Shown one piece after another: positions 3,248-43,183 of a stretch of DNA of 64,000 nt (its first letter is position 1; every line of letters begins with the position of its first letter). Below the pieces are notes generated by a model. The model was not told where the DNA came from. It worked only from the letters and a program-made list of their open reading frames with translations, and ran no database searches. Where the stretch lies: the NCBI GenBank assembly GCA_002709695.1, contig PAQF01000057.1:1-64000 (forward strand). The letters are read 5' to 3'. A program made the position numbers and the translations under genes. Origin of the DNA: Candidatus Poribacteria bacterium. Its GTDB lineage: Bacteria; Poribacteria; WGA-4E; UBA9662.

Positions 3248-3985
3248 ATGATGATTTCTACTTTTGATTTGACCAAAGCCTTTGGCCAGCTTATGGCCGT
3301 TGATAAAATTACCTTGCAAATTGAACCCGGTGAGCTTTTTGGCTTTTTGGGGCCAAACGGTGCTGGTAAGACGACGACGATTAATATGTTAACTGGTTTG
3401 ATTCGGCCGACATCTGGTACCGCAATTATCGATGGTGTTGATGTTTCTCTTAACCCAAGACAGGTTAAGGCAATTACAGGGCTTGTGCCAGATACTCCAA
3501 AAGTTTACGAAACGTTGACCGGTCGCCAGTTTGTTCGTTTTATGGCTAATTTGTATGAAGTAGATCCGAAAGTTGCTGGAAATCGAATGGAACATTTTCT
3601 GGAACGTTTCGATTTGATTGGTTTTGAGGATGATTTGATCAAGAGTTACTCATATGGTATGCAGAAGAAAATCTTGCTTATTGCAGTATTGGTACACAAA
3701 CCTCGCCTCTTCTTCCTTGATGAGCCGACAAGTGGGCTTGATCCTAAAAGTGCTAGGTTGGTCAAAGAAATTCTCCGTGACCTTTGTGACCAAGGTCACA
3801 CGGTATTTATGACCACCCACATCCTAGAGATTGCGGAAAAAATTTGTGATCGTATGGCTATTATTAAAAGTGGGAAACTTGTCGCAGTGGGAACGATTGA
3901 TGAACTTCGAAATACAGAAGAGAATTCTGACCTAAGTTTGGAAGACATTTTTCTGGAGTTGACGGAAAATAGGAATTATGAGTAA
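3248..3985 (+). CDS. ABC transporter ATP-binding protein (exporter type)
   Basis: A 245-residue ATPase with Walker A GPNGAGKTTT, a divergent signature SYGMQKK, Walker B LFFLDEP with SGLDP as D-loop, and the switch histidine in MTTHILEIAE. The layout is that of the single-domain ATPases of CcmA/NatA-type exporters. It overlaps the next gene by 8 bases (the permease ATG at 3978 lies inside the last codons), so the two are almost certainly translated together and form one transporter. The substrate is unknown. The start at 3248 is an ATG directly followed by a second ATG; only a weak purine-rich stretch precedes it. Confidence 0.92.
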   Translation: MMISTFDLTKAFGQLMAVDKITLQIEPGELFGFLGPNGAGKTTTINMLTGLIRPTSGTAIIDGVDVSLNPRQVKAITGLVPDTPKVYETLTGRQFVRFMANLYEVDPKVAGNRMEHFLERFDLIGFEDDLIKSYSYGMQKKILLIAVLVHKPRLFFLDEPTSGLDPKSARLVKEILRDLCDQGHTVFMTTHILEIAEKICDRMAIIKSGKLVAVGTIDELRNTEENSDLSLEDIFLELTENRNYE

Positions 3986-5681
3986 TCTGGTTTTGTTGCT
4001 TCGCACTGATTTTCAATCTTGGCGGAATACTATTCGTTATGATGCAGAAACTCAAAAGAAAAGGTTGTTGGAGCTCGTTGCTTTCGCCATTATTGTGTTT
4101 GCCTTCTTTTTTATCATGCAAGCATCATTTAGCTTGATCGGTCGAGGATTGCTAAGGAATGTTAATTCCATAACAGCCGTATCCAAAGTAGTCAGTTTCT
4201 TGGTGGGACTCGGCACTTTTATACTGATAAAAGATGCCATTCAAGGCTCTATTGTCCGCCTTTATGAAGCTCATGAGAACACCATTTTGTTCTCTGCATC
4301 GATATCTCCAACTGTTGTCTTTACTTCAAAGTTGATTTCTGTCTTGGGAAGCAATCTCTTCAACATGTTGGTGTGGTTAGTTTTACCATGGTGTCTTTTC
4401 GTACAACTGGTTGAAAGTTTTTGGCAGGTTCAGTTTGCTTGGTATTTCTATCTGTTTCTTATTTTGGTTTGTCTGCTTTTATTTGTCATTATCGTGACTC
4501 AAACAATTCTTTTGATGCTGATTATTAATCGTTTTTTTTTGTCTCGTCAAGTTGTTGGTATGTTTAAAGTCCTTGTGGCAACAATTACCATAGGCGTTAT
4601 TGCTATTTTATCCTTCTCATTTTTGGCAATTGAGGATTCCTATAAGTTTGCGCAGACTTTTCTGTCTCAGAACAGTTCTGATAGTTGGAGTTGGTATCCA
4701 CAACGGTGGGCGACCAATTTTCTGTTGAGCTTGCACCCGGAAAGTCATTATGTTGAATGGTATTGGTTGATCCAATTAGCCAGTGTTGGTTTGGTCCTTC
4801 CAATACTGACGGTACTCGTTGCTTCAAAGGTTTACTATCATAGTTGGGAACTTTTTCAGCGGACAGTCAAACGCCAAAAGAGGAAAGCAAGATTAATTAT
4901 CTTAAGTAACTGGGTATGGAAAGGGAAAATTAGATCTATGATGATGAAAGATTTCTTGGTTTTTATCCGTTACCGAGGACGAATAGTCATGGTTGTAATG
5001 TTGTCAGTGATATTAACTATTGTTTTAATGATGATCTCGTCAGAGATGCATCAAAGTGGAATGGAAAGGTTCGACGAAAGTTCCATTTTTGGTGTGTTTT
5101 CGCAGGTTATGTTGTACAGTGTTATAGCCAGTCTTGGTTTAACGTGGTCAGGGTTTAAAGTTGAGAGAGAGACATGGTGGATTCTTAAGTCGAGTATGAT
5201 TTCACCGAAATTACTTTTTCGGAGCAAGTTTTTGGTGGCAACAATTTGTGCAACTGTCTATGCTAATGCTTGGATATTTGCCATCATGATTGTTACCAAG
5301 ATTCCAACCGGATTTTGGTTGCCTGTGTTGGGAATGTCTACTTTGATGATTGCAAGTGTAACTGCCTTTAATACCGCTGTGGGTTCTTTGCCTTGGGTTT
5401 GTGAAATCGATGTACATGGCCAAACTCGTAGACGGAGACCTATGATACGGGTTGCCACTATGGCTTTGACAATGGTTGTTAATATCGTGGTGTTGGTAAC
5501 TCCTTTGATGACTTGGCAATTTGTTTTTATCGCTGAAAACCAGTTTGGTTTGCTTGAAGGATATTCGATAGCAGTTATTCAGCAATTGACCCTTTTGATG
5601 ATGATAACATCACTGATATTATTGTGTTTGGGATCGAACATGATTGGTATCAGATTCCTGAGAAAAAGCATGTCGGGTTAG
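3978..5681 (+). CDS. ABC transporter permease, large putative exporter subunit
   Basis: A 567-residue integral membrane protein with roughly twelve hydrophobic segments, for example around residues 37-55, 78-96, 118-140, 155-180 and 195-215, then a second set after residue 330. A hydrophilic stretch rich in Arg and Lys (around residues 300-330) splits the two halves. This two-half arrangement with a preceding CcmA/NatA-type ATPase resembles the PF16949-type putative exporter permeases. It overlaps the ATPase gene by 8 bases, which supports a dedicated pair. Nothing visible tells the substrate. After its stop comes a 100-base AT-rich spacer holding the promoter of the next operon. Confidence 0.8.
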   Translation: MSNLVLLLRTDFQSWRNTIRYDAETQKKRLLELVAFAIIVFAFFFIMQASFSLIGRGLLRNVNSITAVSKVVSFLVGLGTFILIKDAIQGSIVRLYEAHENTILFSASISPTVVFTSKLISVLGSNLFNMLVWLVLPWCLFVQLVESFWQVQFAWYFYLFLILVCLLLFVIIVTQTILLMLIINRFFLSRQVVGMFKVLVATITIGVIAILSFSFLAIEDSYKFAQTFLSQNSSDSWSWYPQRWATNFLLSLHPESHYVEWYWLIQLASVGLVLPILTVLVASKVYYHSWELFQRTVKRQKRKARLIILSNWVWKGKIRSMMMKDFLVFIRYRGRIVMVVMLSVILTIVLMMISSEMHQSGMERFDESSIFGVFSQVMLYSVIASLGLTWSGFKVERETWWILKSSMISPKLLFRSKFLVATICATVYANAWIFAIMIVTKIPTGFWLPVLGMSTLMIASVTAFNTAVGSLPWVCEIDVHGQTRRRRPMIRVATMALTMVVNIVVLVTPLMTWQFVFIAENQFGLLEGYSIAVIQQLTLLMMITSLILLCLGSNMIGIRFLRKSMSG

Positions 5682-5748: not shown

Positions 5749-5817
5749 CGGTCAGGCTTTTTGTATAGGGTGGATTGTGTTTTAGGCTAAGTGGATTTAG
5801 AAAGGAGCAAGTTTGGG

Positions 5818-7125
5818 ATGCGGAGCAAATTGTGGTTACCTGTCGTTTTTCTTTTAGTTTTGGGTTTGTGTGTTGTCGAAACTCAAGGAGAGACACTAAG
5901 AGTGGCTTGGGCTGAATGGGCACCAGCGGATTATTTACAAGAATTGTCTAAGGATTTTACTAAAGAAACTGGAATTGATGTAGAAATTGTTCAAATTCCT
6001 TGGCCAAGTTTTCAGAATAAGATTGATCTGGGGTTTGTTGGCAAAAGTGATAGTTATGATATTGTCATCGGGGATAGTCAATGGCTTGGTAGTAACTCTG
6101 TTGGCGGGCATTATGTCAAATTGACTGATTGGATCGGCAAAAATGTTGATGTGGATTCCATTTACGGGCCAGCGATGACAGCATTTGCTGAGTATCCCAA
6201 AGGGAGCAAAGAATACTGGGCGCTTCCTGCTGAGGTAGATGCTAATGGTTATGTCTACCGTAAGGATCTGTTTGAAGATCCAAAGGAAAAGCAAGCATTT
6301 AAAGATAAATATGGATACGAGTTAAACGTACCCGAAACCTATCAGCAGTTGAGGGACGTGTCTGAATTCTTTACTCGACCTCCAGATCTGTATGGTATAG
6401 CGACTTATTTTAGTAAAGAGTATGATGGGATCACTATGGGGTTCCAACAGGTGATGTGGTCTTTCGGTGGGTCGTACGGTGACCCCGATACCTACAAGGT
6501 TAAAGGTTATATTAACAACGATGATTCGTTGAAAGCTCTGGAGTATTATAAGGAGCTGATAAAATTCTCGCCACCTGATGCTCCAAATTATTATTGGCAA
6601 GAAACACTAGATGCGTATAAGGCAGGTAAGGTGGCTATGGCCATGAACTATTTTGCTTTTCTGCCTGGCGCGGTGGACCCAGCACAAAATCCGGATTACC
6701 ACGATAAAAGTGGTTTCTTTATTGCTCCTAAAGGACCTAAAGGTCATTACATTAGTATTGGGGGGCAGGGCATGTCGATTTCTTCCTATTCTAAGCGTCA
6801 GCAGGTTGCTAAGGATTACATGAAATGGTTTATTCAGAAACCTGTTCAGGAAAAATGGGCTATGCTTGGTGGGTTTACGCCGCACAAAGAAGTTCTGCAG
6901 TCTGATGTCTTTCTGAATGCGACTCCTTTCAACAAGGCTTTTGCTGCTAGTTTCCCTTACTTGCGAGATTTCTGGGCTATCCCGGAATATGCTGAGCTAT
7001 TGGATGTTTGCCAAACAAATTGGAACGCTGTTGTCGTTGGATCCAAATCTGCTAAAGAGGCTCTAGATACCATTGCTAACAAGCATGAAGAGATCTTTGA
7101 AGATGCGGGATACTACGACGAATGA
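5818..7125 (+). CDS. extracellular carbohydrate-binding protein of an ABC importer (family 1 SBP)
   Basis: A 435-residue protein beginning with a signal peptide (MRSKLWLPVVFLLVLG, cleavage near residue 24). The mature part begins ETLRVAWAEW and has the two-lobe layout of family 1 solute-binding proteins (MalE/UgpB-like). Typical elements are DIVIGDSQW, the hinge-region ALPAEVDANGYVYRKDLF and, near the C-terminus, WAMLGGFTPHKEV. No lipobox is visible, so it is probably periplasmic. The frame is open from a GTG at 5791, but AAGGAG at 5802-5807 places the start at the ATG at 5818. It is the first gene after a strong promoter; the cyclase gene follows 131 bases later and the two permeases and ATPase come after that. 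The sugar is unknown. Confidence 0.9.
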   Translation: MRSKLWLPVVFLLVLGLCVVETQGETLRVAWAEWAPADYLQELSKDFTKETGIDVEIVQIPWPSFQNKIDLGFVGKSDSYDIVIGDSQWLGSNSVGGHYVKLTDWIGKNVDVDSIYGPAMTAFAEYPKGSKEYWALPAEVDANGYVYRKDLFEDPKEKQAFKDKYGYELNVPETYQQLRDVSEFFTRPPDLYGIATYFSKEYDGITMGFQQVMWSFGGSYGDPDTYKVKGYINNDDSLKALEYYKELIKFSPPDAPNYYWQETLDAYKAGKVAMAMNYFAFLPGAVDPAQNPDYHDKSGFFIAPKGPKGHYISIGGQGMSISSYSKRQQVAKDYMKWFIQKPVQEKWAMLGGFTPHKEVLQSDVFLNATPFNKAFAASFPYLRDFWAIPEYAELLDVCQTNWNAVVVGSKSAKEALDTIANKHEEIFEDAGYYDE

Positions 7126-7256
7126 TCTAGAAAAACGAACCTGAGTGAGATGTCAAATGTAACGAATCAAGTTCTTCGCAAAGCGTAACCGGGTTATTTT
7201 CTTAAGTATGCTTTGTGATTTATTCTACATTTTTACAAGCTATAGGAGTAAGTGGT

Positions 7257-9587
7257 TTGCAAGACGAACAACAAAATGAAGTTGAAGTTGCTGAAGAAGT
7301 GGAAACTTCGCCTGCGGAAGTGAGCACTTCTGCTAAGAAAGCTGAAGTCGTTGAGGAAATCGAGGATCGTCGGCCAAAGTTCATACAAGGCATGGAGGCA
7401 TTTGTTGATACCAAACTTTTTCAGGGGCTTATGCTCATTACCACGATTTATGCTCTTATTGGTACTGACATTGCCGCTTGGGTTGGGTTATCCCAGGAAC
7501 AGTATCATGTTATGCACTGGGTGTCTTTCATCGCTTTAATCTTATTCTTTGTTGAATGGTTTCTTCAATGGGCTTGTAAAGATGGTTATTTTGATGGGGG
7601 AAAAGGCTTTTTCTTCTGGTTAGACTTTATTGCTGCGTTATCCCTGATTCCGGATGTGCCTTGGATAGCTGAACCGTTGGCTGCTGCAATGGGATTGGGT
7701 GGCGGTGCTGGTGGAGGTCTGGCTATTGCTAGGGCTGGTCGGGCTGCGCGTGCTGGTGCTAGAGCCGGTCGAATCGCACGGATCTTCAAACTTTTGAAAA
7801 AAGCTTTACCTGCTATTCAAAAAATGATGGGTAAAGAGTTACCTGAGGATGAAGAGGATGATGACCTTGGAGAACTCGCACCCAGTGCTATCGGTGGTGT
7901 TTTTGGCGATTTGATGACTCGAAAAGCGATTGTTGGTGTTATGTTGATGTTGGTTTTTGTGGCTATGTTGGACTATCAACCACCACGTCCGTTCGATACT
8001 GCTGGTTTGGGGCAACTTGAACAAACTGCTGGGGAGATGCAAGAACTCTTGGTAGAGCAGTACAAGAGGAAATTCAACTTCAAAGGCGAGTTGGTGCAGG
8101 ACGAGGAAGCAGCTTTAGAAACCTTGTTGGCAGAGCATATAGAGTTTCGGGCGTTAGGTATCGATACTAAAGAGGATAAAGCTGCAGATATCAAACGAAA
8201 GATGCGTATCGACGAGATTAACGCGATTATTGCTCTCGCTCCGCCTAGATTGGTTTACTTGAACCTAAACGGTGAAACCGTTGAGTCTGCTTGGGATAAA
8301 ACATTGATCATGTCTCCGATTTCCGGAGGAGGGGAAGCGCGTTTCGACAAACGTAAAGAAACGGTATTGAAGAAGTCTGATGTTCTACGGATCTTTACTC
8401 CTAATGCGCAGAGCCAAGCTTGGTTCGATATCCGGCATGAAAAGGCTATGGAAGGTAAGAATGCTTTCTTCATGACGTTGTTTGTTGTTGTCCTCCTTGG
8501 TACTGGTTCTATGCTTTTTCAATCGGATGCTGAAAAACTGTTTATTGGTCCAATCATGAAGATGACAGATATTGTCCGAGAACTGGCGGACAATCCCTTG
8601 GCTGCTCTTGACGCGGGAGGAGATGAGGATGACAGTGAAACAGCTGTGGTCACAAAAGCCATGGTCAAGATTGGGGGTATGTTGCAGATTGGTTTCGGTG
8701 AAGCTGGGGCAGAAATTATTGCTCATAACATGGCTTCAGGTGGTGAGCTCGATGTTATGATTCCGGGCGAGAAGATTGAGGCCATTTATGGTTTCTGTGA
8801 TATTAGAAGTTTCACAGATGCCACCGAATGTTTGCAAGAAGATGTTATGCTTTTCGTTAATGAAATTGGTGGTATTGTGCATCATGCTACTGTGCAATCG
8901 GGCGGGGCACCAAACAAGAATATTGGTGATGCTTTCCTCCTGATTTGGAAGCCCAAAACGGGTGAATCAATGATGAGTCTTTGTGATGGTGCCTTGAATT
9001 CGTTCATAGAGGTTATTGAAGAATGCAATGCTTCCAGAAGACTGAGGGAGATTACTCAGCATGAAGGTTTGCAAGCAAGAATTCCTGGTTTTACCACTAA
9101 AATGGGATTTGGTTTGCATCTCGGTTGGGCTATTGAAGGAGCTATTGGTTCTAATTACAAGGTAGACTGTTCGTACCTGTCACCTAATGTTAATATGGCT
9201 GCCAGGCTTGAAGCTGCTACCAAGCAATTCGGTGCTGAAATCCTTCTCTCTGGTGATTTCTATCAAGGGCTTACACCGGCAATGAAGGCTAAGTGTCGCC
9301 AGATAGATCACATTACTGTCAAGGGAAGTATACAACCCATGAAACTCTACTCCTGCGATGTTACCTTTCCTCCTGGAGTTAATGCTACATCTTATTACGA
9401 TACCTTTGGTAAAGGGGTAGATCTCTATACGGCTGGTTCTTGGATGGAAGCTAAAGAGGTATTTGAGTCCTGTTTGGAAACATGGACAGATGATATTCCA
9501 CCGCAGAATATCCTGACGGTTATGAAGGAAACAGACTTTACTGCCCCTGACGATTGGGAAGGTTATCGTGCGTTAACTGAGAAGTAA
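7257..9587 (+). CDS. voltage-sensor-like membrane domain fused to class III adenylate/guanylate cyclase
   Basis: About 776 residues from the TTG at 7257, chosen because AGGAG at 7244-7248 precedes it by 8 bases; a GTG at 7215 is the alternative and residue numbers here count from that GTG. After an acidic N-terminus come S1 (69-90), S2 (100-121, FFVE with Glu114), S3 (131-148, LDF with Asp137) and an Ala/Gly-rich S4 (173-196) with Arg at 173, 176, 179, 183, 186, 189 and Lys at 192 and 195. A fifth segment (238-254), a roughly 160-residue extracytoplasmic region and a sixth segment (417-437) lead through a HAMP-like linker to the cyclase domain. It keeps both metal aspartates (Asp529 in CDIRSFT, Asp572 in NIGDAF), Lys568, and the Asn660/Arg664 pair in NVNMAARLE. 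The second base-selecting position is Pro657, so ATP versus GTP is open. No pore region is visible after S4. It sits between sugar-transporter genes. Confidence 0.85.
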   Translation: MQDEQQNEVEVAEEVETSPAEVSTSAKKAEVVEEIEDRRPKFIQGMEAFVDTKLFQGLMLITTIYALIGTDIAAWVGLSQEQYHVMHWVSFIALILFFVEWFLQWACKDGYFDGGKGFFFWLDFIAALSLIPDVPWIAEPLAAAMGLGGGAGGGLAIARAGRAARAGARAGRIARIFKLLKKALPAIQKMMGKELPEDEEDDDLGELAPSAIGGVFGDLMTRKAIVGVMLMLVFVAMLDYQPPRPFDTAGLGQLEQTAGEMQELLVEQYKRKFNFKGELVQDEEAALETLLAEHIEFRALGIDTKEDKAADIKRKMRIDEINAIIALAPPRLVYLNLNGETVESAWDKTLIMSPISGGGEARFDKRKETVLKKSDVLRIFTPNAQSQAWFDIRHEKAMEGKNAFFMTLFVVVLLGTGSMLFQSDAEKLFIGPIMKMTDIVRELADNPLAALDAGGDEDDSETAVVTKAMVKIGGMLQIGFGEAGAEIIAHNMASGGELDVMIPGEKIEAIYGFCDIRSFTDATECLQEDVMLFVNEIGGIVHHATVQSGGAPNKNIGDAFLLIWKPKTGESMMSLCDGALNSFIEVIEECNASRRLREITQHEGLQARIPGFTTKMGFGLHLGWAIEGAIGSNYKVDCSYLSPNVNMAARLEAATKQFGAEILLSGDFYQGLTPAMKAKCRQIDHITVKGSIQPMKLYSCDVTFPPGVNATSYYDTFGKGVDLYTAGSWMEAKEVFESCLETWTDDIPPQNILTVMKETDFTAPDDWEGYRALTEK

Positions 9588-9602
9588 AGTATAAAAACTG
9601 AG

Positions 9603-9646
9603 AGAGCAGTCGATTAGAAATCCTTGATTCGGCTGCTCTTTTTTTT
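9603..9646 (+). terminator. Rho-independent terminator after the cyclase gene
   Basis: An 11-base-pair stem, 9603-9613 against 9629-9639 with one G-T pair, is followed by a run of T through 9646. It begins 16 bases after the cyclase stop codon. It separates the binding protein-cyclase unit from the permease genes, which should therefore have their own promoter or depend on read-through. Confidence 0.85.
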
Positions 9647-9710: not shown

Positions 9711-10628
9711 ATGCGTTCAGAAGGCCTACCAAAAGGTCTCAATGATTATCAGATTAAGATGATGTTCATTACACCGACCATGATTTTGTTGGTTTTGATG
9801 AATATCTTCCCGTTGCTTTGGTCGTTGTACTTAAGTTTTCATCGTTACAAAGCTTCTCTGCCAACCCGGCCCGCGAAGTTTATTGGGTTGCGTAATTATT
9901 CTCGGCTTTTGTCTGACCCCGAAGTATGGGAGTATTTTCAAACTACCGCTTATTTCGTTGTCCTGGCTGTGCTAATCCAGTTCATCATCGGTTTTGGGTT
10001 GGCTTTGCTGCTAAACCGTGAGTTTGCTTACAAGGGAATGATTACCACGCTAATCTTGTTACCGATGATGCTCTCACCGGTTGTCGTAGGATTGTTTTGG
10101 CGGTTCATTTTTGCTTCCGATAATTCTGGGTTGGTCAACTATTTCCTTAGTCCGGTATTAAACACGTTGAACATGCAACCGATTGGTTGGACAACAAATC
10201 CCAAGATGGCTATGATTGCCGTGGTAATTGTTGATACATGGATGTGGTCACCTTTCATGATGCTGATTTCTTTAGCGGGGTTATCTGCCATACCTAAGTA
10301 CCTCTACGAAGCCGCAGATGTCGATCGCGCTTCGACGTGGTTCAAGTTTCGCTGGATTACCTTGCCGCTGGTTTCACCCCTTTTGTTAATTGCATTGCTA
10401 TTTCGTACGATGGATGCATTTAAGATGTTCGACATCGTCTATGTGTTGACGCGTGAAGGTGGGCCGGGTACGGCGACAGAAACAGTCTCTATGAACCTTT
10501 ATAAACTGGCGTTCCGGAATTTCAATACAGGGAAGGCTTGTGCCATGGCATATATTCTTTTAATCATCATTGTTGCACTAAGTAATATCTATGTTAAATA
10601 TTTGAATCAAGTAAAGGGAGAGGCATAG
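9711..10628 (+). CDS. sugar ABC transporter permease (MalF/UgpA type)
   Basis: A 305-residue membrane protein with six hydrophobic segments and the BPD_transp_1 signature EAA loop (YEAADVDRASTWFKF) near residue 197. The N-terminus IKMMFITPTMILLVLMNIFP is the usual first segment of MalF/UgpA-like subunits. It forms the importer channel with the next gene. It lies 64 bases after a terminator, so its transcription may be separate from the binding protein gene; I found no convincing -35/-10 pair in that gap, and the ribosome binding site (AAGAAAG) is weak. Its stop is 1 base before the start of the next permease. Confidence 0.92.
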   Translation: MRSEGLPKGLNDYQIKMMFITPTMILLVLMNIFPLLWSLYLSFHRYKASLPTRPAKFIGLRNYSRLLSDPEVWEYFQTTAYFVVLAVLIQFIIGFGLALLLNREFAYKGMITTLILLPMMLSPVVVGLFWRFIFASDNSGLVNYFLSPVLNTLNMQPIGWTTNPKMAMIAVVIVDTWMWSPFMMLISLAGLSAIPKYLYEAADVDRASTWFKFRWITLPLVSPLLLIALLFRTMDAFKMFDIVYVLTREGGPGTATETVSMNLYKLAFRNFNTGKACAMAYILLIIIVALSNIYVKYLNQVKGEA

Positions 10629-10629
10629 A

Positions 10630-11784
10630 TTGGCAAGTAAGCGGCAGATAGGACTGGGACACTATATTATTTTGATTGTCATTGCTATAGCTGTTGTTGT
10701 CTATTTGATCCCAATTTATTGGATTATTGTAACTTCCTTAAAATCACCCAGTGACATCGTGACCAAAGTTCCCAAGTTTCTGTTTCGTGTAACGTGGGAG
10801 AACTATCACAAGCTAATGCCGGCGGAGATTCCTCTCATTTTTTATGTCTTCTTGGTTGAATCACTAATTGGGATTTTTTTGGTTTGCCTGTCGCTCAAAA
10901 AAGATGTGGTCATAGTACGGAGTTTGATTCCCGTGGGTTGCATTGTGTTTGTCTTAACTGGCTTTTATGCTTTTGTAACTACGGTGAACTACAATTTTCT
11001 GATGTTGATAGTTTATGCTGGAGCTGTTTATTGGTTGATTAGAAAAACTGCGACTACTGCCACACAAGTCTTACTTATTTGGGGTAGTCTTGTTGCCTTT
11101 TCTCTGGTGGCTGTTTGTGTTGTGCTGTCTGGGGCTGGGTCCAAGTATTTTCATCAGTTGCTGAATAGCATTATCATTGGGTTCGGTAGCACTATTTTGG
11201 CTGTTGGGTTAGGAACCTTTTCTGCTTATGCCTTTTCGCGTTTTGAAATCTTAGGCAAGGAAGATCTACTGTTTTTTATTCTTAGTACGCGGATGTTGCC
11301 TCCAGTTGTGGTCGTTATTCCGGTTTACTTAATGTATAGTAAGCTTGGGTTACGAGATACACATTTGGGTTTAATACTATTATATACTACTTTTAATCTG
11401 TCATTTGCTGTCTGGTTGATGAAGGGGTTTATTGATGAAATCCCAAAAGAATATGAAGATGCGGCGTTAGTAGATGGATACACGCGTTTCCAAAGTTTCT
11501 TCAAGGTCGTTTTCCCACAGTCAGTAACAGGAATTGCCGCTACAGCAGTATTTTGTTTGATTACGGCTTGGAATGAATTTGCTTTTGCTCTTGTATTAAC
11601 AGAAGTTGGAGGCAAAGCTGTTACTGCTCCTCCGTCTATTACCAGTGCAACTGGATCTGGTGGGGTAGATTGGGGAATGATTGCGGCTAAAACTTTCATC
11701 TTTTTGTTACCTGTTGCGGTTTTTACTTTTTTAATGCGGAAGCATTTACTTCGTGGTGTTACTTTTGGTGCTGTTAAAAGGTAA
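10630..11784 (+). CDS. sugar ABC transporter permease (MalG type) with an extra membrane insertion
   Basis: A 384-residue MalG/UgpE-like permease starting at TTG 10630, with AGGGAG just upstream. The first membrane segment, VPKFLFRVTWENYHKL, and later YFHQLLNSIIIGF, EYEDAALVDGYTRF (EAA loop) and the C-terminus are standard. Family members are usually about 270-300 residues. Here roughly 100 extra residues (about 67-168) sit between the first periplasmic loop and the second normal segment. They contain four hydrophobic stretches, near 69-89, 93-114, 118-136 and 145-166. The ATPase gene follows after 3 bases. It should pair with the MalF-like subunit upstream. Confidence 0.9.
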   Translation: MASKRQIGLGHYIILIVIAIAVVVYLIPIYWIIVTSLKSPSDIVTKVPKFLFRVTWENYHKLMPAEIPLIFYVFLVESLIGIFLVCLSLKKDVVIVRSLIPVGCIVFVLTGFYAFVTTVNYNFLMLIVYAGAVYWLIRKTATTATQVLLIWGSLVAFSLVAVCVVLSGAGSKYFHQLLNSIIIGFGSTILAVGLGTFSAYAFSRFEILGKEDLLFFILSTRMLPPVVVVIPVYLMYSKLGLRDTHLGLILLYTTFNLSFAVWLMKGFIDEIPKEYEDAALVDGYTRFQSFFKVVFPQSVTGIAATAVFCLITAWNEFAFALVLTEVGGKAVTAPPSITSATGSGGVDWGMIAAKTFIFLLPVAVFTFLMRKHLLRGVTFGAVKR

Positions 11785-11787
11785 GTA

Positions 11788-12903
11788 ATGGCAAATCTAA
11801 AACTAAAAAATATCAAGAAGAGTTTTGCCGATCAAGTGGCACTGGATGATCTCAATCTTGATATTGCGGATGGTGAATTTTTTGTTATTTTGGGACACAC
11901 AGGATCTGGGAAAACAACAACACTTAGATGTATTGCTGGTTTGGAGCGACCTGAGCAGGGGGAAATCTATATGGATGATGAATTGATATCGGATATGACC
12001 CCGGCTAATCGCGATGTTGCCTTTGTCTTCCAGGAGCATATTTTGTATCCGCATATGACTGTTTACGAAAATATGGCTTTTCCTCTTCATCCAAGAGGGT
12101 ATTCCGAATCGGAAATTAATTCGAAGGTGGTGGAGATCGCTGAAATGTTGCATATTGAGCATCTTCTAGAACGGCAACCGAGTCAACTTAGTGGTGGAGA
12201 AACACAACGTGTTGGACTCGGTCGCGCTATGGTACGCCAACCGAAGGTGTTTTTGATGGACGAACCGATCTCGGCATTAGATGCAAAATTACGTGCTGAA
12301 ATGCGATCTGAGATTAGATTGCGTCAACGTCAAACGGGTATTACGACGCTTTATGTGACCCATGATCAAACTGAAGCCATGTCAATGGCGGATCGAATTG
12401 CTATCCTCAAGGATGGTGGTGTAATGCAAGTTGGAACCGCGACAGAAGTCTATCGTTCACCAGCTAACCTGTTTGTGGCAGACTTCATTGGTAACCCAAG
12501 CATAAATTTGATTTCTGGCAAGGTTTTGGCCGAAGATGAGAATATTCTGATGAATTTCTTAGGCAACCTGAAATGGCAGGTTACTGACGCGGAGATTGTC
12601 AAGAAACTGGCAGTAGTTGATAGGGATTGTGAAGTGATACTTGGCGTTCATCCAGAAGACATTAGTTTGGAAGACGGACAAGATACAAATGGTATTCCAG
12701 CTGAAATATATGAGTCTGAACCTTTAGGTGCCGAAACGATTGTGTCCCTGAGCTTGGGGGAGAATACCGAAGGAGAAACAATAATCCTGAAAGCGAGAAC
12801 TTCACCCGATTTTGATGAGGCCGCTGGTCAATCAGTTTCGATAAACTTTGATCAGAAACGAGTGCTCTTCTTCGATGCGGTAACTGGAAAAGCTATTCGC
12901 TGA
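11788..12903 (+). CDS. sugar ABC transporter ATP-binding protein (MalK/UgpC type)
   Basis: A 371-residue ATPase with Walker A GHTGSGKTTT, signature LSGGETQRVGLGRAM, Walker B VFLMDEPISALD and switch histidine in YVTHDQTEAM. After residue 235 it has the C-terminal OB/TOBE-type regulatory region (FIGNPSINLISG, LGVHPEDISLED) seen in MalK, UgpC and MsmK, which energise carbohydrate importers. It follows the MalG-type permease by 3 bases and completes the importer with the binding protein at 5818. Nearby there is no glycoside hydrolase or sugar kinase that would reveal the substrate. Confidence 0.94.
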   Translation: MANLKLKNIKKSFADQVALDDLNLDIADGEFFVILGHTGSGKTTTLRCIAGLERPEQGEIYMDDELISDMTPANRDVAFVFQEHILYPHMTVYENMAFPLHPRGYSESEINSKVVEIAEMLHIEHLLERQPSQLSGGETQRVGLGRAMVRQPKVFLMDEPISALDAKLRAEMRSEIRLRQRQTGITTLYVTHDQTEAMSMADRIAILKDGGVMQVGTATEVYRSPANLFVADFIGNPSINLISGKVLAEDENILMNFLGNLKWQVTDAEIVKKLAVVDRDCEVILGVHPEDISLEDGQDTNGIPAEIYESEPLGAETIVSLSLGENTEGETIILKARTSPDFDEAAGQSVSINFDQKRVLFFDAVTGKAIR

Positions 12904-12941: not shown

Positions 12942-13805
12942 CTAGAATCTCTTAACTTTCTTTTTGAAACCTCCACCGTATTTATCACTGAGTTCTTTTT
13001 CTACGTTTTGCTGATGTTCAACTAGTTTCTGTTGCATGCAAAATGATGAAATTTTGTCAGTGACCTTCGCTTCTTCAAAGGGATTCTCAAAAACCCAAGC
13101 AACGGCAATATTATCGTTGTCCGGTTTGTCAGGATTTTTAAGAACTCTAACGATCCGAGAGACTAAAGTAGTTTTTCCATGATATTCGTCGTCTTCACTG
13201 AATTTTGGGAACTTCGGATTGGTAACGGTTAAATCAACCGCCATCCCTTCATGTATTCCTGAACCTCGTTTCACTTCGACTAATACCCCCGAGCCGCTTA
13301 CTTCTACTGATTGAACTGGTGTTTCTGGTAGGGTGAATTTTTTTCTGCGACCTTCACCTTCACTAGCCGAAATGGACATAGAAAGACGCGCAGCGATCCT
13401 AGTAAACTTTCTTTCTTGGATGTCCATGGTAAAGTTAGAAAATTGTAGTACATGTCCAAGTTCTGGGTCGAAAAAAGACTCTTCTACTACTTCTGCCTCC
13501 TCAACACCACCAATTCTAATCGAAGCATACAATTCTTGGTCTGATAATGCTCCATCCGGAATTGGTTCCGTGAACTCTCCTACTGGTGGGATGTTAACAC
13601 AAACAATTTTGGAATGTATAAAACCGAGTTTAGCGGGTACTTCGTCCATATAGTCAGGGAAGTTTTCGATTTCCTCTGTCAGTTCGTAATCAATTTCAAC
13701 GTCGCGGTCAACTTCTGAATCTTTAATTGCTTTAATAATTTCTTCTTTCGTTTCAGGTACTTCAAACTCTGTAGCTTCTCCTGTCAGTCTGCTTTTTAAA
13801 CCCAT
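12942..13805 (-). CDS. PilZ-like domain protein, possible cyclic-di-GMP receptor
   Basis: A 287-residue soluble, acidic protein. Residues 131-195 look like a PilZ domain: an arginine-rich entry (Arg132, Arg136, Arg140 in ERKFTRIAAR) and, 28 residues later, EVSGSG, close to the (D/N)xSxxG motif but with Glu in the first position. The preceding 130 residues could be a YcgR/PilZN-like beta domain. The basic C-terminus ends KKKVKRF. PilZ proteins usually bind cyclic di-GMP and act on motility or exopolysaccharide synthesis. It is convergent with the ABC ATPase gene, ending 38 bases from it. I am moderately sure of the fold and unsure of ligand binding because of the Glu substitution. Confidence 0.5.
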   Translation of the reverse strand: MGLKSRLTGEATEFEVPETKEEIIKAIKDSEVDRDVEIDYELTEEIENFPDYMDEVPAKLGFIHSKIVCVNIPPVGEFTEPIPDGALSDQELYASIRIGGVEEAEVVEESFFDPELGHVLQFSNFTMDIQERKFTRIAARLSMSISASEGEGRRKKFTLPETPVQSVEVSGSGVLVEVKRGSGIHEGMAVDLTVTNPKFPKFSEDDEYHGKTTLVSRIVRVLKNPDKPDNDNIAVAWVFENPFEEAKVTDKISSFCMQQKLVEHQQNVEKELSDKYGGGFKKKVKRF

Positions 13806-15206: not shown

Positions 15207-16916
15207 ATGGGATATTACTGCGCAGTTGCGATTAAACGGGGCTTAAACCCAATCGCCGAAATATTTTTTATCTGTATCTGTTTTTGTGTTGCTTTGTTCT
15301 TGTGCTTTCTATCGGTCCAATTAGGTTATGCCGATGGCCGTTCGGTTGTGTTTACGGATGTTACTCAGGGTTCAGGTATTAAATTCAAGCATTACAATGG
15401 TAGGAGTCAACGTCGTCACATCGTTGAAACTATGGGAGCAGGTGCGGCCTTCTTGGATTATGATAACGATGGTTTTCTCGATTTATACATTGTGAATGGT
15501 GGTTCTTTGGAAGACAAAAAAAGTCGGGTTGCCTACGGGAATATGCTTTATAGAAACAATAATGGCAGTGGCACTTTTTCTGATGTTACGGAAAAAGCCC
15601 GTGTTGGCGATTCTCATTATGGGATGGGAGTTGCTGTGGGAGACTATAACAATGATGGTTTTGTTGATATCTATGTGACCAATTATGGTCCTAATGTTCT
15701 TTACCAAAATCAAGGAGACGGAAGTTTTGCAGATGTTACCCAGAAAGCAAAAGTTGGCAACTCAGATTGGGGGACAGGTTGTGCCTTTCTCGACTTTGAT
15801 TTGGATGGTGATTTAGACTTGTATGTTGTTAATTATGTTGAGTATCGTACGTCGATGAAACCATGTATCAATTTAAAAACTGGAGTTATTGAATATTGCC
15901 ATCCGCGGACATTTCGGCCAGCTAAAGACGTCCTTTATCAAAACAATGGAGATGGAACCTTTACTGATGTAACTAGGGAATCTGGTGTTTACAATACTAT
16001 TCCATGTAGAGGGTTAGGGATAGGAATAGGTGATTGTGATAATAATGGGTATCCTGATATATATATTGCTAATGATACTGACCGAAACTGCTTTTATTTG
16101 AATAATGAGGGCGTTTTCGAGGATATTGCTTTTTCCTCAGGAACGGCTTTTAATAAAGATGGTATACCGGAAGGTGGTATGGGGGTTGATATTGCAGATT
16201 ATAATAAGGATGGATGGTTGGATATTTTTGTCACCAATACGGAAACCAACACGTTGTACAAGAGCCACGGTGATGGCACCTTTACTGATATAAGTGATGA
16301 AGCTAGTTTGGGTGGTGTCTCAGCTTCGTTGGTTGGGTTTGGAACAAAATTCTTTGACTATGATAATGATGGTGAGCTGGATATTTTCGTGGCCAACGGA
16401 GAAGTACAGGAATTTATTGATCCAACGACCAGAAAGTCTACTTATCCTCAGAGAGACCAACTGTACAGGAGTAATGGAGATGGAACTTATACTGAAGTCT
16501 CCGCTTCTTCGGGGAAGTATTTCTCGAAGAAATACGTTGGTCGTGGTGCTGCTTTTGGGGATTATGATAACGATGGTGATATCGATCTCCTTGTTTTCAA
16601 TTGTAATCAAAGCGTGACTCTACTTCGGAATGATGGGGGGAATGCCAATAATTGGCTTTCAGTTAAACTCGTTGGAGTACAGAGTAACCGAGATGGAATT
16701 GGAGCACGTATTCGTGTCACTACAGAAGGAGAAGTACGTGTGGCTGAAGTCCAAAGTGCGGCTAGTTATCTTTCAGCCAATGATCTTCGAGTTATCTTCG
16801 GTTTAGGAAGGAAAAAGGTTGTTGATGAAATTGAAGTGCTTTGGCCGGGTGGGAACAAGCAAACGCTGACTAACATCAAGGCTAATCAATTGATCGAGAT
16901 TACTGAAAAGATATGA
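15207..16916 (+). CDS. secreted FG-GAP/VCBS-repeat protein with ASPIC/UnbV C-terminal domain (CRTAC1-like)
   Basis: A 569-residue protein. An N-terminal hydrophobic segment (about residues 18-40) serves as signal peptide or anchor. Seven FG-GAP-type repeats follow, each with a calcium-loop pattern such as DYDNDGFLDLY, DYNNDGFVDIY, DFDLDGDLDLY, DCDNNGYPDIY, DYNKDGWLDIF, DYDNDGELDIF and DYDNDGDIDLL, consistent with a beta propeller. The last 90 residues match ASPIC/UnbV (GIGARIRV, then EIEVLWPGG). Such proteins are extracytoplasmic and bind calcium; their ligands are mostly unknown. It overlaps the HEAT-repeat gene by 4 bases (ATGA), so the two are translationally coupled. Confidence 0.92.
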   Translation: MGYYCAVAIKRGLNPIAEIFFICICFCVALFLCFLSVQLGYADGRSVVFTDVTQGSGIKFKHYNGRSQRRHIVETMGAGAAFLDYDNDGFLDLYIVNGGSLEDKKSRVAYGNMLYRNNNGSGTFSDVTEKARVGDSHYGMGVAVGDYNNDGFVDIYVTNYGPNVLYQNQGDGSFADVTQKAKVGNSDWGTGCAFLDFDLDGDLDLYVVNYVEYRTSMKPCINLKTGVIEYCHPRTFRPAKDVLYQNNGDGTFTDVTRESGVYNTIPCRGLGIGIGDCDNNGYPDIYIANDTDRNCFYLNNEGVFEDIAFSSGTAFNKDGIPEGGMGVDIADYNKDGWLDIFVTNTETNTLYKSHGDGTFTDISDEASLGGVSASLVGFGTKFFDYDNDGELDIFVANGEVQEFIDPTTRKSTYPQRDQLYRSNGDGTYTEVSASSGKYFSKKYVGRGAAFGDYDNDGDIDLLVFNCNQSVTLLRNDGGNANNWLSVKLVGVQSNRDGIGARIRVTTEGEVRVAEVQSAASYLSANDLRVIFGLGRKKVVDEIEVLWPGGNKQTLTNIKANQLIEITEKI

Positions 16917-18073
16917 AAAAGATGGGCTTATGTCATCTTAATTCTGGGGTCAGGTATCTATATCTGCCACAAAAGCTTTTGATCGTATTTCATCTCATGT
17001 TTTGCATGTGTATGATAACTGTTGCCCAGCAAGATGAATCCCAGATAAAATTTCTTATGCGTCAACTTGATGATGAAGATGTAGCTGTTCGTAGTAAAGC
17101 GGCTAAGACACTAGGATCTTTCGGTTATAAAGCGCAGGTTGCGGTTCCTCTGCTGATTGGTTCCCTTAATGATGAATCTCGGTATGTACGTCGTAATGCT
17201 GCTTTTGCTTTAGGTCGTATTGGTGGGGATACTGGTGAATCGGTACCAGCACTAATTACAGCACTTGGTGATGGTGATTGGACTGTGCGGTTAAATGCGA
17301 CATCCGCGCTTGGTAGCATTGGTGAGAGTGCTAAGGCTGCAGTTCCGTTTTTAATAAATGTTGTGGATGATGTGAACTGGGAAGTTAGTGTTAATGCCGT
17401 GAAGTCGTTGGGACAGATTGGTCCTTCTGCTGGCATTGCCGTGCCAGTTTTGGGACAAGCTTTAAAAAGTGAAAACGAGATGATACGCAGTAACGCTGCG
17501 ATGGCATTGAGTGGAATTGGCAAGGCTGCTATTCCCGTATTGGTATCTGCACTAACTGATACCAATAAAATTGTTCGTCGCACCGCCGCATTTTCACTGA
17601 GCCGAATTGACAAACTGCCTAAGGAAACTTTACTTGCTTTGACGGTGACCTTGAATGATAGTGATGTGAGTGTACGCGTTTCTGCTGCCGCCGCATTGGC
17701 TAAAGTTGATCCTTCCAGTCGAAAAAAGACCGTATTAATTTTAACCGAAGCTTTGAATAGCAAAGACGAATTTGCTCGTGGGTTTGCTAATTACAGCTTA
17801 AAAAAAATCAGAGAACTTGATGCACTTTTCATTGAAGAAAAAGTGAAATCCCTTATTCTACAGTTACGTAATAGTGATGCAACCATACGTTATAAAGCAA
17901 CTGTGGCTTTGGGGAAGATGGGTCAAACTGCGTCGGGAGCCGTTTCGGATTTAATTAAGTTGCTAGATGATCCGGATAAAAGAGTGAGTTCACATACGTT
18001 TGCAGTATTGAGCAGTATTAACAGCCCGGAGGCAGTCAAAGCCGTCAATCAGTATCTTGAAAACCAGAAATAA
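16913..18073 (+). CDS. secreted HEAT-repeat protein
   Basis: A 386-residue protein with a signal-like hydrophobic segment near residues 22-40 (LLIVFHLMFCMCMI), followed by about ten HEAT/PBS-lyase-like helical repeats. Recurring pieces are VRxxAAxALGxIG and VPxLIxAL (for example SVPALITALGD, AVPFLINVV, AIPVLVSALTD). HEAT solenoids are protein-binding scaffolds. The gene begins inside the stop codon region of the FG-GAP gene and is convergent with the LamG gene at 18087. The coupling suggests that the solenoid and the propeller act together, probably outside the cytoplasm. No enzymatic motif is seen. Confidence 0.88.
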   Translation: MKKMGLCHLNSGVRYLYLPQKLLIVFHLMFCMCMITVAQQDESQIKFLMRQLDDEDVAVRSKAAKTLGSFGYKAQVAVPLLIGSLNDESRYVRRNAAFALGRIGGDTGESVPALITALGDGDWTVRLNATSALGSIGESAKAAVPFLINVVDDVNWEVSVNAVKSLGQIGPSAGIAVPVLGQALKSENEMIRSNAAMALSGIGKAAIPVLVSALTDTNKIVRRTAAFSLSRIDKLPKETLLALTVTLNDSDVSVRVSAAAALAKVDPSSRKKTVLILTEALNSKDEFARGFANYSLKKIRELDALFIEEKVKSLILQLRNSDATIRYKATVALGKMGQTASGAVSDLIKLLDDPDKRVSSHTFAVLSSINSPEAVKAVNQYLENQK

Positions 18074-40051: not shown

Positions 40052-43000
40052 TTACTTCAATATAATGAGCCGTTTCTGGCTAGAAAAGTTGCCAGCTTTA
40101 ATCTGGTAGAAATAGATCCCGCTTGCTATTAGTTCTCCCCAATCGCTTCGTCCATCCCAGTAGGCGGCGTTAGTACGATTGAGATAATACCCAGCTTTCC
40201 TATATCCAAGGTCAAGTCTTCTGACTTTTCGACCTTTTAAGTCATAGATTGTAATTGATACTTCTTGAGCTTCTGCCAGTTGGAATGGAATCCAAGTCTC
40301 TGGGTTGAAAGGATTTGGATAATTATTGAGTAACTTCGTAACTGTGGGCAGACTCTGCATACGTAGTTGCTCAATAATATTTTTTAATGCTACTGCGAGT
40401 TCACTGCCTACACTGGTCTGGCGACTTCTGATTTGAAGACCGAAATACATTTTTTCATAAATCTCAAGCATCTCAGGGTGAGAAAATTGAGATTGTATTG
40501 GTGAGTTAGGAGCAGATGATGTAAGTTCATCGCCTATTGTTTTTTTCCAATTGTCGTTAATGGTGAAAACATCATCGAGATTGATAACACCGTCCCCATT
40601 CGCATCGGCATAAGTTGCTTGTTTATTGGACCAGGATATGGCAGGTTGTAATCGCCAACTACTATTGCCTTTTCGGCGAATCTCACCATTAAGACCCCAA
40701 AATTGGCCAACTGGTAGTATATCAAAAACGTTTACATCTCCATCACGGTTAGTGTCACCAGGCCAAACAACTAAACCTGTTGTGAATTCGAGAACGGCAG
40801 CTTCTAGAAATTTTCCGTTTACATCTTCAATTCCACTGCTAACACGGATGGTAATTGTTTCCTTCTCGCGTAAAATACTTCCTGGATTGAAGGTAATCAT
40901 GTTAGTGCCTTCAACCGCATATTGCTCTTCATTCTGAGAATAGGTAATAATCGACCCGTTTTCTAACTTTCCTTCAACCCTAAAATTAAATGGTGTTAGT
41001 GTTTCCATATTGAGTTTAGAAAATGTGGGGACTCGAACTCGAATACGGTCAGTTACGGCAACTTCCGCTGTTCGGTTTGGCTCAATTAGATCAATCAATT
41101 CTCCTGTTCGCTCTTCTTCGGTTAGGATTCCAATGTCCCAGACCAACACTGTTCCATCTAGTGATGAGGAAACTAGCAAATTTGTGCCATCGTCAAGGCG
41201 TGAGAAAGCTAGCCCCGTTACTTTTTTCGTATGGCCACTGAATTGTTGTAAGCCTTCTTCGGGATTACCATGACTCCACATTAAGATTGAGTTCTCAATT
41301 CCAACAGCCACGAAGCGTCCATCAAGGGAAATACTTAAGGCAGCTACTTCTCCAGATGCAACACTTTTATCCACAGAGAGCTGGTGAGTTTGGAGAATTG
41401 AACGGTCCTTTAAGATATCATAGAACTGGACAAATCCATTTTGCAGACCAATAACAAAGCGATTATCGTTCTTAACTGGGCTGAAAGCCACTTTTGTCCC
41501 TGGGGTGCCTATATTCAGAATTGAATTTTTTGGTTTATTTGTTAATTTCTGGATACCTTGATCTAGTGAAACTTGGTAGAGTGCTACCGTGCTGTTTGCA
41601 GCAAGTAATGCCATTATCGACCCTTCGAAGTTGAAACTGATGTCGATCAGAGGTGTATTTTTGAAATCAAGGTCATTCTCAAATTGTGGCGCTCCTTTTT
41701 GGCGTACGCGAACACTACCATCTTTTCCCACGGAACCAATCCATTGTCCTGACGGATCGTAGGCAACCATGCTGGATATTGTCGTCTCAGGGTGGCTTAA
41801 TCCTGACTGGGCAGCACTGTCACTTGGTGGATCAGATGTAATATCTAACACTGCTATCTCATTACTCTGTAATGCGATAGCGACTTCGTTAGCAGATGGA
41901 CTTAATTTGATATCATTTACCTTAGAGGGAAAAGGTAATCTTCTTTTTTCTGTCATCTCATCCAAATCCCATATCACGGCCCGCTTTGATTTGTAATTAA
42001 CTAGTAATTGGCGGTTTGTGGTTGTAGATGAAGAATGAATTGAGGAAATCTGCGGGTGAAAATCTGTAAATTCGGTGTTAATTGGAATTGCGATCTCAGC
42101 TAATCCAAGTTTGAAAAGTACGAAGGATTGGTTCAGTGGATTATTATCAGCACCAATTGCTAAAACCTTCTTTTTGGGATGAAATGCCAGTGTAATACTG
42201 TCAGCGCTGAAATCCCGATTAAGCAGCGGGCTGCCTTTTCGGGTGGCATCGGATTGGAAGACTTCCCATACTCGTAGCTTTTGGTCAGTTGCGATTGCAA
42301 GAAGGTTTCGTTGGGTTGGGTGGAAGATAATGTCGAAGATTTTTTCATTCGGAATTTGAGTTAAAAACTCGGGTCTAGGGTCAGCAACGACTTGGCGATA
42401 GATTTCGCTTGAATTGGTTTGGGTATTATATGCTCCTATTAGCAAGTGGTTTCCATCACTGTTGAAGGTTATGTTATTGATGACAAGATCTGCTGGAAGA
42501 ATACCTTTTTGAATGTTGCGGAATATTGATTCTGTCGAGCTCTTCCGCCAAATAAAAATTTCTGTTTGAGAAGCAACCGCAATACGTTGATCCATGCCTG
42601 CTACCCCAGGGTCGAATACTACATCAATAACTTCTCCTTCAAGTGTGAAAATTTGTGACAAACTCGTTTCGTCCTCACCCACAGCGTAAACAAAAACTTC
42701 GCTTTGTTCCTTCTTTCCTTCTTGAGCAATAGCCCCAATAGCCATCCATTCTTCATCAGTGCTGATGGCGACTGTTTGAATTGGTGTTCTTTGGACTTGT
42801 GATGGTGGGGTAATTGGATGACGAGGATTATTTAAGTCAAAGATCTTCAGGCCATCTACGGTAGCGATTGCAACACGCTCGTGTGACATAAACCCCAAGT
42901 CTACCGCGAAATTTTCTAGCCGGATGAATCCTGCCTGTTTTAAACTCTCGGCATCGATAATGCGTATACCGACTGATGTTGTAAGGGTAATTAGTTTTGC

Positions 43001-43183
43001 GTCCGGTGAATAGTTTACTCGTTGGATTCGCCCGTATCCTATGCGGTCAACTGCTTTGTCAGGAAGAAAACCATTACTATCGGCAACAACTAGTAATGGC
43101 GCAAGAAGCGCAACTAGTACTGGCGCAAGAAAAATAACAACAAAGAGCTTGGCTGAAAAAGAACTTCCCCAGAATTTAACCAT
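40052..43183 (-). CDS. secreted WD40-repeat protein with dockerin-like loops and a FlgD/Por-type C-terminal tail
   Basis: A 1043-residue protein. The N-terminal hydrophobic segment (residues 12-34) is a signal peptide. Residues 45-690 are WD40-like beta-propeller repeats (for example VVAFDPSGQWIGSVGKDGSV and SSSLDGTVLVWD). A Big_5-like Ig domain covers about 700-790. Two calcium loops, DTNRDGDVNVFD and DANGDGVINLDD (about residues 807 and 862), form a dockerin-like module. The C-terminus from about 950 holds LLNNYPNPFNPET and then FYQIKAG, a FlgD-Ig or Por-sorting-like tail. It heads a three-gene operon with the cohesin-like and beta-helix lipoproteins, 25 bases upstream of the former. The divergent neighbour is a PorX/PorY-like pair. 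Confidence 0.85.
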   Translation of the reverse strand: MVKFWGSSFSAKLFVVIFLAPVLVALLAPLLVVADSNGFLPDKAVDRIGYGRIQRVNYSPDAKLITLTTSVGIRIIDAESLKQAGFIRLENFAVDLGFMSHERVAIATVDGLKIFDLNNPRHPITPPSQVQRTPIQTVAISTDEEWMAIGAIAQEGKKEQSEVFVYAVGEDETSLSQIFTLEGEVIDVVFDPGVAGMDQRIAVASQTEIFIWRKSSTESIFRNIQKGILPADLVINNITFNSDGNHLLIGAYNTQTNSSEIYRQVVADPRPEFLTQIPNEKIFDIIFHPTQRNLLAIATDQKLRVWEVFQSDATRKGSPLLNRDFSADSITLAFHPKKKVLAIGADNNPLNQSFVLFKLGLAEIAIPINTEFTDFHPQISSIHSSSTTTNRQLLVNYKSKRAVIWDLDEMTEKRRLPFPSKVNDIKLSPSANEVAIALQSNEIAVLDITSDPPSDSAAQSGLSHPETTISSMVAYDPSGQWIGSVGKDGSVRVRQKGAPQFENDLDFKNTPLIDISFNFEGSIMALLAANSTVALYQVSLDQGIQKLTNKPKNSILNIGTPGTKVAFSPVKNDNRFVIGLQNGFVQFYDILKDRSILQTHQLSVDKSVASGEVAALSISLDGRFVAVGIENSILMWSHGNPEEGLQQFSGHTKKVTGLAFSRLDDGTNLLVSSSLDGTVLVWDIGILTEEERTGELIDLIEPNRTAEVAVTDRIRVRVPTFSKLNMETLTPFNFRVEGKLENGSIITYSQNEEQYAVEGTNMITFNPGSILREKETITIRVSSGIEDVNGKFLEAAVLEFTTGLVVWPGDTNRDGDVNVFDILPVGQFWGLNGEIRRKGNSSWRLQPAISWSNKQATYADANGDGVINLDDVFTINDNWKKTIGDELTSSAPNSPIQSQFSHPEMLEIYEKMYFGLQIRSRQTSVGSELAVALKNIIEQLRMQSLPTVTKLLNNYPNPFNPETWIPFQLAEAQEVSITIYDLKGRKVRRLDLGYRKAGYYLNRTNAAYWDGRSDWGELIASGIYFYQIKAGNFSSQKRLIILK

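Follow-up and report, generated by a model that had tools for sequence, protein, structure and literature searches.

Gene Structure and Domain Layout

The window analyzed here, a stretch of 64,000 nucleotides from a Candidatus Poribacteria bacterium (contig PAQF01000057.1, assembly GCA_002709695.1), carries on its plus strand a single uninterrupted open reading frame that ends at 9587 and has two candidate starts, a GTG at 7215 (giving 790 aa) and a TTG at 7257 (giving 776 aa). The TTG is to be preferred because a ribosome-binding-like AGGAG, read in the sequence, lies eight bases upstream of it (7244..7248, plus strand) and an 86%-identical ortholog starts at the equivalent TTG; we therefore place the whole cyclase gene at 7257..9587. 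An initial annotation of this DNA had placed the cyclase at 7257-9587, where the reading frame is indeed present, but it mixed the two forms: its residue numbers are correct for the 790-aa protein, whereas its start coordinate is that of the 776-aa protein. Residue numbers throughout this work refer to the 790-aa reading from GTG 7215, and all features of the gene given below lie on the plus strand.

Hydropathy analysis of the protein gives hydrophobic stretches at approximately residues 63-93, 95-123, 128-157, 226-257, and 410-440. Together with the profile matches described below, these define an architecture of which we are practically certain: an S1-S4 region, then a membrane pair that encloses an external region, and finally the class III cyclase domain. 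The membrane pair had been annotated as surrounding a roughly 160-residue external region, and this is what we find: TM5 (residues 238-254; 7926..7976) and TM6 (residues 413-436; 8451..8522), both assigned by hydropathy, are separated by an extracytoplasmic region of about 158 residues (residues 255-412; 7977..8450) to which no Pfam family was matched. This region is 77% and 28% identical to its counterparts in the two orthologs and is the fastest-evolving large part of the protein, with some 80 additional residues in the second-genus ortholog; such divergence suggests that the orthologs may bind different ligands or no strict ligand at all. TM6 is followed by a signaling linker (residues 437-515; 8523..8759) that had been described as HAMP-like. 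The likeness is one of appearance only, in that Pro446 and an NPL motif resemble HAMP by eye, but no Pfam HAMP match was obtained in the linker up to an E-value of 10.

The class III cyclase domain (residues 516-715; 8760..9359) scores 37.7 bits against Pfam Guanylate_cyc when the catalytic domain is searched alone (cut-off 21.9), and its catalytic set is complete, comprising not only the metal-binding aspartates (Asp529 and Asp572) and the Asn/Arg pair of the transition state (Asn660 and Arg664) that had been recognized previously, but also the purine-site residues Lys568 and Ser653. Among solved structures, every one of the nearest chains is an adenylyl cyclase, and bPAC, OaPAC, a CyaB, and CyaC head the list. 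A lysine together with a hydroxyl residue at the purine site is the class IIIb pattern, which goes with ATP, and Ser653 aligns with the corresponding Thr of bPAC to give a class IIIb-like pattern; K568 and S653 thus point to ATP rather than GTP as the probable substrate, and we infer adenylyl cyclase activity. The class IIIb enzymes bPAC, OaPAC, CyaC, and CyaB1 share this Lys plus hydroxyl arrangement (Ser653 standing for Thr) and are the closest solved domains, yet their sequence similarity is distant only and their inputs are light, PAS/GAF domains, and others rather than a voltage sensor. A homodimer is expected because the single chain bears the full catalytic set. The C-terminal extension (residues 716-790; 9360..9584) is conserved in the orthologs and belongs to no family.

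A Pore-Less S1-S4 Region with Voltage-Sensor Motifs

The N-terminal membrane region comprises S1 (residues 66-89; 7410..7481), S2 (residues 98-120; 7506..7574), S3 (residues 131-151; 7605..7667), and an S4-like helix (residues 170-197; 7722..7805). Pfam Ion_trans matches residues 68-201 over profile positions 3-129 of 241, which corresponds to S1-S4 without the pore, at an E-value of 4.9e-4 for the whole protein and 4.6e-5 for the isolated region; Ion_trans and Guanylate_cyc were the two profiles proposed in the initial annotation as a check. The isolated sensor region of the window protein reaches 23.2 bits, 1.8 below the Pfam cut-off of 25, and the ortholog from the second genus exceeds this cut-off with 25.6 bits (28 in another search). 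No S5-P-S6 pore follows S4, as had been noted: the Ion_trans match ends at position 129 of 241, the site of the channel S4-S5 linker and pore is occupied by an acidic cytoplasmic linker (residues 198-237; 7806..7925), and hydropathy beyond S4 gives one helix, the external region, and one further helix.

The motifs of the charge-transfer center are likewise where they had been claimed, with F111 and E114 forming FxxE in S2 and D137 lying in the LDF of S3; all three residues are invariant in the three orthologs. The ortholog motifs LFFxE (S2) and WLDF (S3) align in register with LFTxE and VDL of Kv channels, and a profile comparison (hhalign) of the sensor region with 30 Kv-type channels of the phylum gave a score of 37.1 at 66% probability, whereas the highest score among 100 column shuffles was 29.2. 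Single pairwise comparisons with Kv channels are less uniform: the window sensor scores 50, below its shuffle maximum of 61, and only the second-genus ortholog stands clearly above its own (69 vs. 60). The best plausible matches of a PDB search with the three-sequence sensor-region profile are weak ones to NavMs (E 0.04) and Nav1.7 (E 4-7). The resemblance to bacterial sodium channels proposed in the initial annotation is therefore present in the weak NavMs match but is not exclusive, as Kv-type channels are resembled as well. Measured against Kv1.2, the spacings of the protein from E to D (23) and from D to R1 (36) suit Kv better than BacNav.

The S4-like helix carries nine basic residues (R173, R176, R179, R183, R186, R189, K192, K195, and K196), mostly at every third position; the positions given previously are all correct. 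The R/K ladder has eight members with a single +4 step, a regularity matched in only 2 of 20,000 segment shuffles. Its origin by chance from Ala/Gly/Arg-rich coding can be ruled out by these shuffles together with the codon changes in S4, which are exclusively synonymous between the window species and its sister (seven in 24 sites, none non-synonymous).

Conservation was compared over three sequences, namely the window protein, its same-genus sister species, and the second-genus ortholog. Relative to the sister species there is no residue change in S3, S4, or TM5, though synonymous sites differ, and relative to the second genus S3 (90% identity) and S4 (75%) are the most conserved membrane parts, whereas S1 (46%), S2 (35%), and loops such as that between S3 and S4 (41%) diverge. 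S2 is diverged overall, yet F111, F112, and E114 are retained, and D85 near the end of S1, D137 of S3, and all six S4 arginines are invariant across the two genera. As read from these alignments, a functioning charge-transfer center would be expected to leave just such a pattern.

The membrane placement of S4 requires separate consideration. The earlier caution that this helix is unusually rich in Ala and Gly is well founded: by hydropathy the basic helix (170-197) is not hydrophobic, and its best 19-residue segment has a membrane-insertion sum of 13.8 (on the scale of Hessa and colleagues), compared with 8.2-9.8 for S4 of Kv-type channels of the phylum, that is, 4-6 units less favorable for insertion, and with about 0.4-8.4 for the other helices of the protein. 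The helical moment over the first part of S4 is strong (0.48). Counting S4 as a span, the K+R content is three in the N-terminus, zero in the S1-S2 loop, two in S2-S3, and zero in S3-S4, and the end of S4 is strongly basic; this placement fits an N-terminus inside the cell and puts the cyclase in the cytoplasm. S4 thus probably spans the membrane. The structure prediction suggested in the initial annotation recovered the helices in the expected order but with low confidence. From the three-sequence alignment, which is too shallow for either prediction, AlphaFold2 gave a poor model of the sensor alone (pLDDT 53.4, pTM 0.37) and a meaningless one of the full-length protein (pLDDT 33.8). In a fold search with the low-confidence sensor model, about 35 of the best 50 matches were to voltage-sensor proteins, with the Ci-VSP sensor, KvAP, NavAb, and SLC9C1 among them; no match was significant (none with E < 0.001).

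In sum, Pfam, profile comparison, conservation, and topology all support a pore-less, sensor-like S1-S4 joined to a class III cyclase, and we hold with high confidence that a sensor-type module and a cyclase are fused in this one protein.

Distribution and Probable Gain of the Gene

Among 85 Poribacteria genomes, the gene occurs in all three genomes of one family and in 0 of the 82 others, the orthologs being 86% (same genus) and about 50% (second genus) identical to the window protein; the next best matches are cyclase domains of about 27% identity. A scan of 84,980 prokaryote species with two narrow motifs of 7-8 residues returned only the two known Poribacteria orthologs. Scans of viral contigs gave no match, a plasmid search gave cyclase-domain matches only (<33% identity among the matches listed), and a literature search for peptide motifs of the family returned nothing relevant. 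Contamination by a protist contig is excluded by the presence of the gene in three assemblies and two genera, with bacterial transporter genes on both sides.

These flanking genes, all on the plus strand, encode an extracellular solute-binding protein of a sugar-type ABC transporter (SBP_bac_1; 5791..7125) upstream of the cyclase, and two ABC permeases (9711-10628 and 10630-11784) and a MalK-like ATPase (11788-12903) downstream, and their order is common to all three genomes with the cyclase. The solute-binding protein is present in 78 of the 85 Poribacteria genomes, and in three genomes of other families its gene is followed directly, after short gaps, by the permease gene, with no cyclase between them. 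The cyclase gene was most likely gained by insertion into an ABC-transporter cluster in the ancestor of one family, since the binding-protein and permease genes adjoin elsewhere and loss in all other families would be less economical.

Directly 3' of the cyclase gene lies a strong intrinsic terminator (9600..9646, plus strand; -21.5 kcal/mol, z -4.9). The sister species has its counterpart (L023:8370-8417; -21.9 kcal/mol, z -5.5), in which the altered bases keep the stem, and none was seen in the third genome (L024, second genus). Given a terminator in this position, expression of the cyclase is probably coupled more closely to that of the binding protein than to that of the permeases. Besides the window gene, the genome has nine cyclase-family matches in eight frames. 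Cyclic-nucleotide-binding matches number six, of which one lies within an Ion_trans channel.

Relation to Known Voltage-Sensor Proteins and Cyclases

The closest described parallel is the sensor-cyclase family of Phytophthora PPTG_13136 and PPTG_13761, reported from at least 90 flagellated or ciliated organisms, whose pore-less layout is, according to PMC12223298 (Sci Rep 2025), confined to stramenopiles and alveolates. Compared by published description, these proteins share with the Poribacteria protein an N-terminal Ion_trans match, S4 motifs, and the lack of a pore, with a C-terminal Guanylate_cyc domain at ~520-760 and a few hundred residues between the two, so that the layouts are nearly superposable; they differ in that the PPTG family is eukaryotic and located on flagella, whereas the Poribacteria protein is bacterial and encoded in a transporter gene cluster. 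Contrary to the restriction described in PMC12223298, the architecture of that family (Ion_trans without the pore plus Guanylate_cyc) is found here in a bacterium. In the Poribacteria protein, the pore-less sensor-cyclases known from stramenopiles and alveolates thus have a counterpart among bacteria; the kind is known in protists, and its bacterial version in a transporter cluster is new. Presumably, protist sensor-cyclases also share its unusual cyclase motifs, which we treat as a lead only.

Voltage-sensor domains also stand N-terminal to class III adenylyl cyclases in ciliates and Plasmodium, where a K+ channel is part of the fusion (Weber et al. 2004, cited after the review PMC10651576; Schultz et al. 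1992), and a 2025 viewpoint describes channel-cyclases as seemingly restricted to protozoans (PMC12414865). In Paramecium, hyperpolarization is followed by an increase in cAMP. These cyclases contain a K+ pore, whereas the Poribacteria protein has none and instead carries an external domain between two extra helices. Ci-VSP, whose sensor ranks among the top fold matches of the low-confidence model, likewise joins a pore-less S1-S4 to a cytoplasmic enzyme, but is an animal phosphatase with demonstrated voltage control; in the voltage-gated Na+/H+ exchanger SLC9C1 (PMC6052114, PMC10620092), S1-S4 controls a non-channel partner, namely a transporter that bears a cyclic-nucleotide-binding domain. 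NavMs, NavAb, and Kv-type channels share the S2 F/E and S3 D in register as well as the S4 Arg ladder; they differ in having an S5-S6 pore and a far more hydrophobic S4. The passages on voltage-sensor proteins in the review PMC10651576, which collects the topologies of all those reported in a figure, name channels, phosphatases, SLC9C1, and protozoan cyclases with a K+ pore and no bacterial enzyme.

Proposed Mechanism and Alternative Explanations

We hypothesize that the protein is a two-input, membrane-bound adenylyl cyclase that receives membrane potential via S1-S4 and a ligand via the external domain, which as a whole is the best explanation and one we favor by a small measure. Residues 66-197 would form a pore-less four-helix bundle of the voltage-sensor type, in which the S4 Arg ladder, held by Asp85 (S1), Phe111 and Glu114 (S2), and Asp137 (S3), would shift with membrane potential; movement of S4 in the membrane is a plausible means of gating the enzyme. 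TM5, the external domain, and TM6 would act as an ordinary receptor module for a ligand, perhaps one tied to the sugar-binding protein encoded next door, and the linker would convey both inputs to a homodimeric class III cyclase converting ATP to cAMP. Within the same cell, this cAMP may in turn address proteins of the CRP type or the channel with a cyclic-nucleotide-binding match. The gene would have been gained once in one Poribacteria family, inserted in the ABC-transporter cluster. Such are the ligand input, the voltage gating, and the origin of the gene that we infer here; for the narrower proposition that membrane potential controls cAMP production, we consider the balance to be even.

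The main rival holds that S1-S4 derives from a channel sensor and has kept its membrane fold, yet is degenerate or repurposed as an anchor, dimerization, or docking module, with the signal coming from a ligand of the external domain, as is usual for one-component receptor cyclases. The half of the protein from TM5 through the cyclase is by itself a complete receptor cyclase, the gene adjoins that of a sugar-binding protein, S4 is without the usual bulky residues, and protein-organizing roles of cyclase membrane domains have been discussed (PMC12414865); however, an exact Arg ladder, E114, and D137 across genera would be unexpected of a mere anchor when S2 has only 35% identity, and the external domain is the least conserved part (28%). 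On this evidence we regard a repurposed sensor as rather unlikely. An alternative topology, in which the Arg-rich helix is not transmembrane but an amphipathic or lipid-binding helix on the cytoplasmic face, would leave three helices before TM5 and an N-terminus outside; it draws on the very low hydrophobicity of the helix, the strong moment in its first part, and the lack of a confident bundle in the models. This topology would, however, place R52, R53, and K55 outside and the K/R-free S1-S2 loop inside, contrary to the well-established positive-inside rule, and the Ion_trans match continues through S4 to profile position 129, while Ala/Gly filling and strict three-residue spacing are, in our judgment, atypical of interfacial helices, all of which makes it improbable.

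Conduction of protons by the S1-S4 bundle in the manner of Hv1, with the cyclase sensing the local change in pH, has very little probability in our estimation. Hv1 has an Asp in S1, and the invariant D85 lies near the outer end of S1 here. Pore-less sensor domains can conduct, as the review PMC10651576 has it for Hv1, but no Hv1-specific motif was seen in the protein and nothing demands proton conduction. We accordingly retain the two-input cyclase as our working model.

Bacterial membrane potential varies and carries information, and to our knowledge few direct molecular readers of it are known besides channels. If the model is true, a single bacterial protein, the sensor-cyclase, would convert voltage to cAMP, and the electrical state of these bacteria may directly set a chemical signal. 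We raise only tentatively, at somewhat less than even confidence, the prospect that it is the first bacterial enzyme in which a genuine S4 sets cAMP by potential alongside a ligand input, arising through protist-bacterium transfer or representing a bacterial source of the protist family. The protein would extend to bacteria a layout that PMC12223298 confines to stramenopiles and alveolates, raising the question of the direction of gene movement between protist and bacterium. It would also offer a prokaryotic protein for purification, structure determination, and voltage tests, and one that might serve as a tool for voltage-to-cAMP conversion.

Other Features of the Window

Directly upstream of the solute-binding protein gene lies a second ABC unit (3248-5681), consisting of an ATPase (3248-3985) and a large membrane protein without a Pfam match (3978-5681); the latter is conserved in the sister species, and no counterpart was seen in the part of the second-genus genome that was covered. 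Downstream of the MalK-like ATPase gene, on the opposite strand, a PilZ-like protein (12942-13805, minus strand; E 0.12 only) occupies the same place in each of the three genomes, with identities of 86% and 38%, and a link to cyclic-di-GMP is possible. Farther along, 15207-18073 and 40052-43183 encode FG-GAP/UnbV, HEAT-repeat, and WD40-type repeat proteins; dockerin and secretion-tail domains accompany the last of these.
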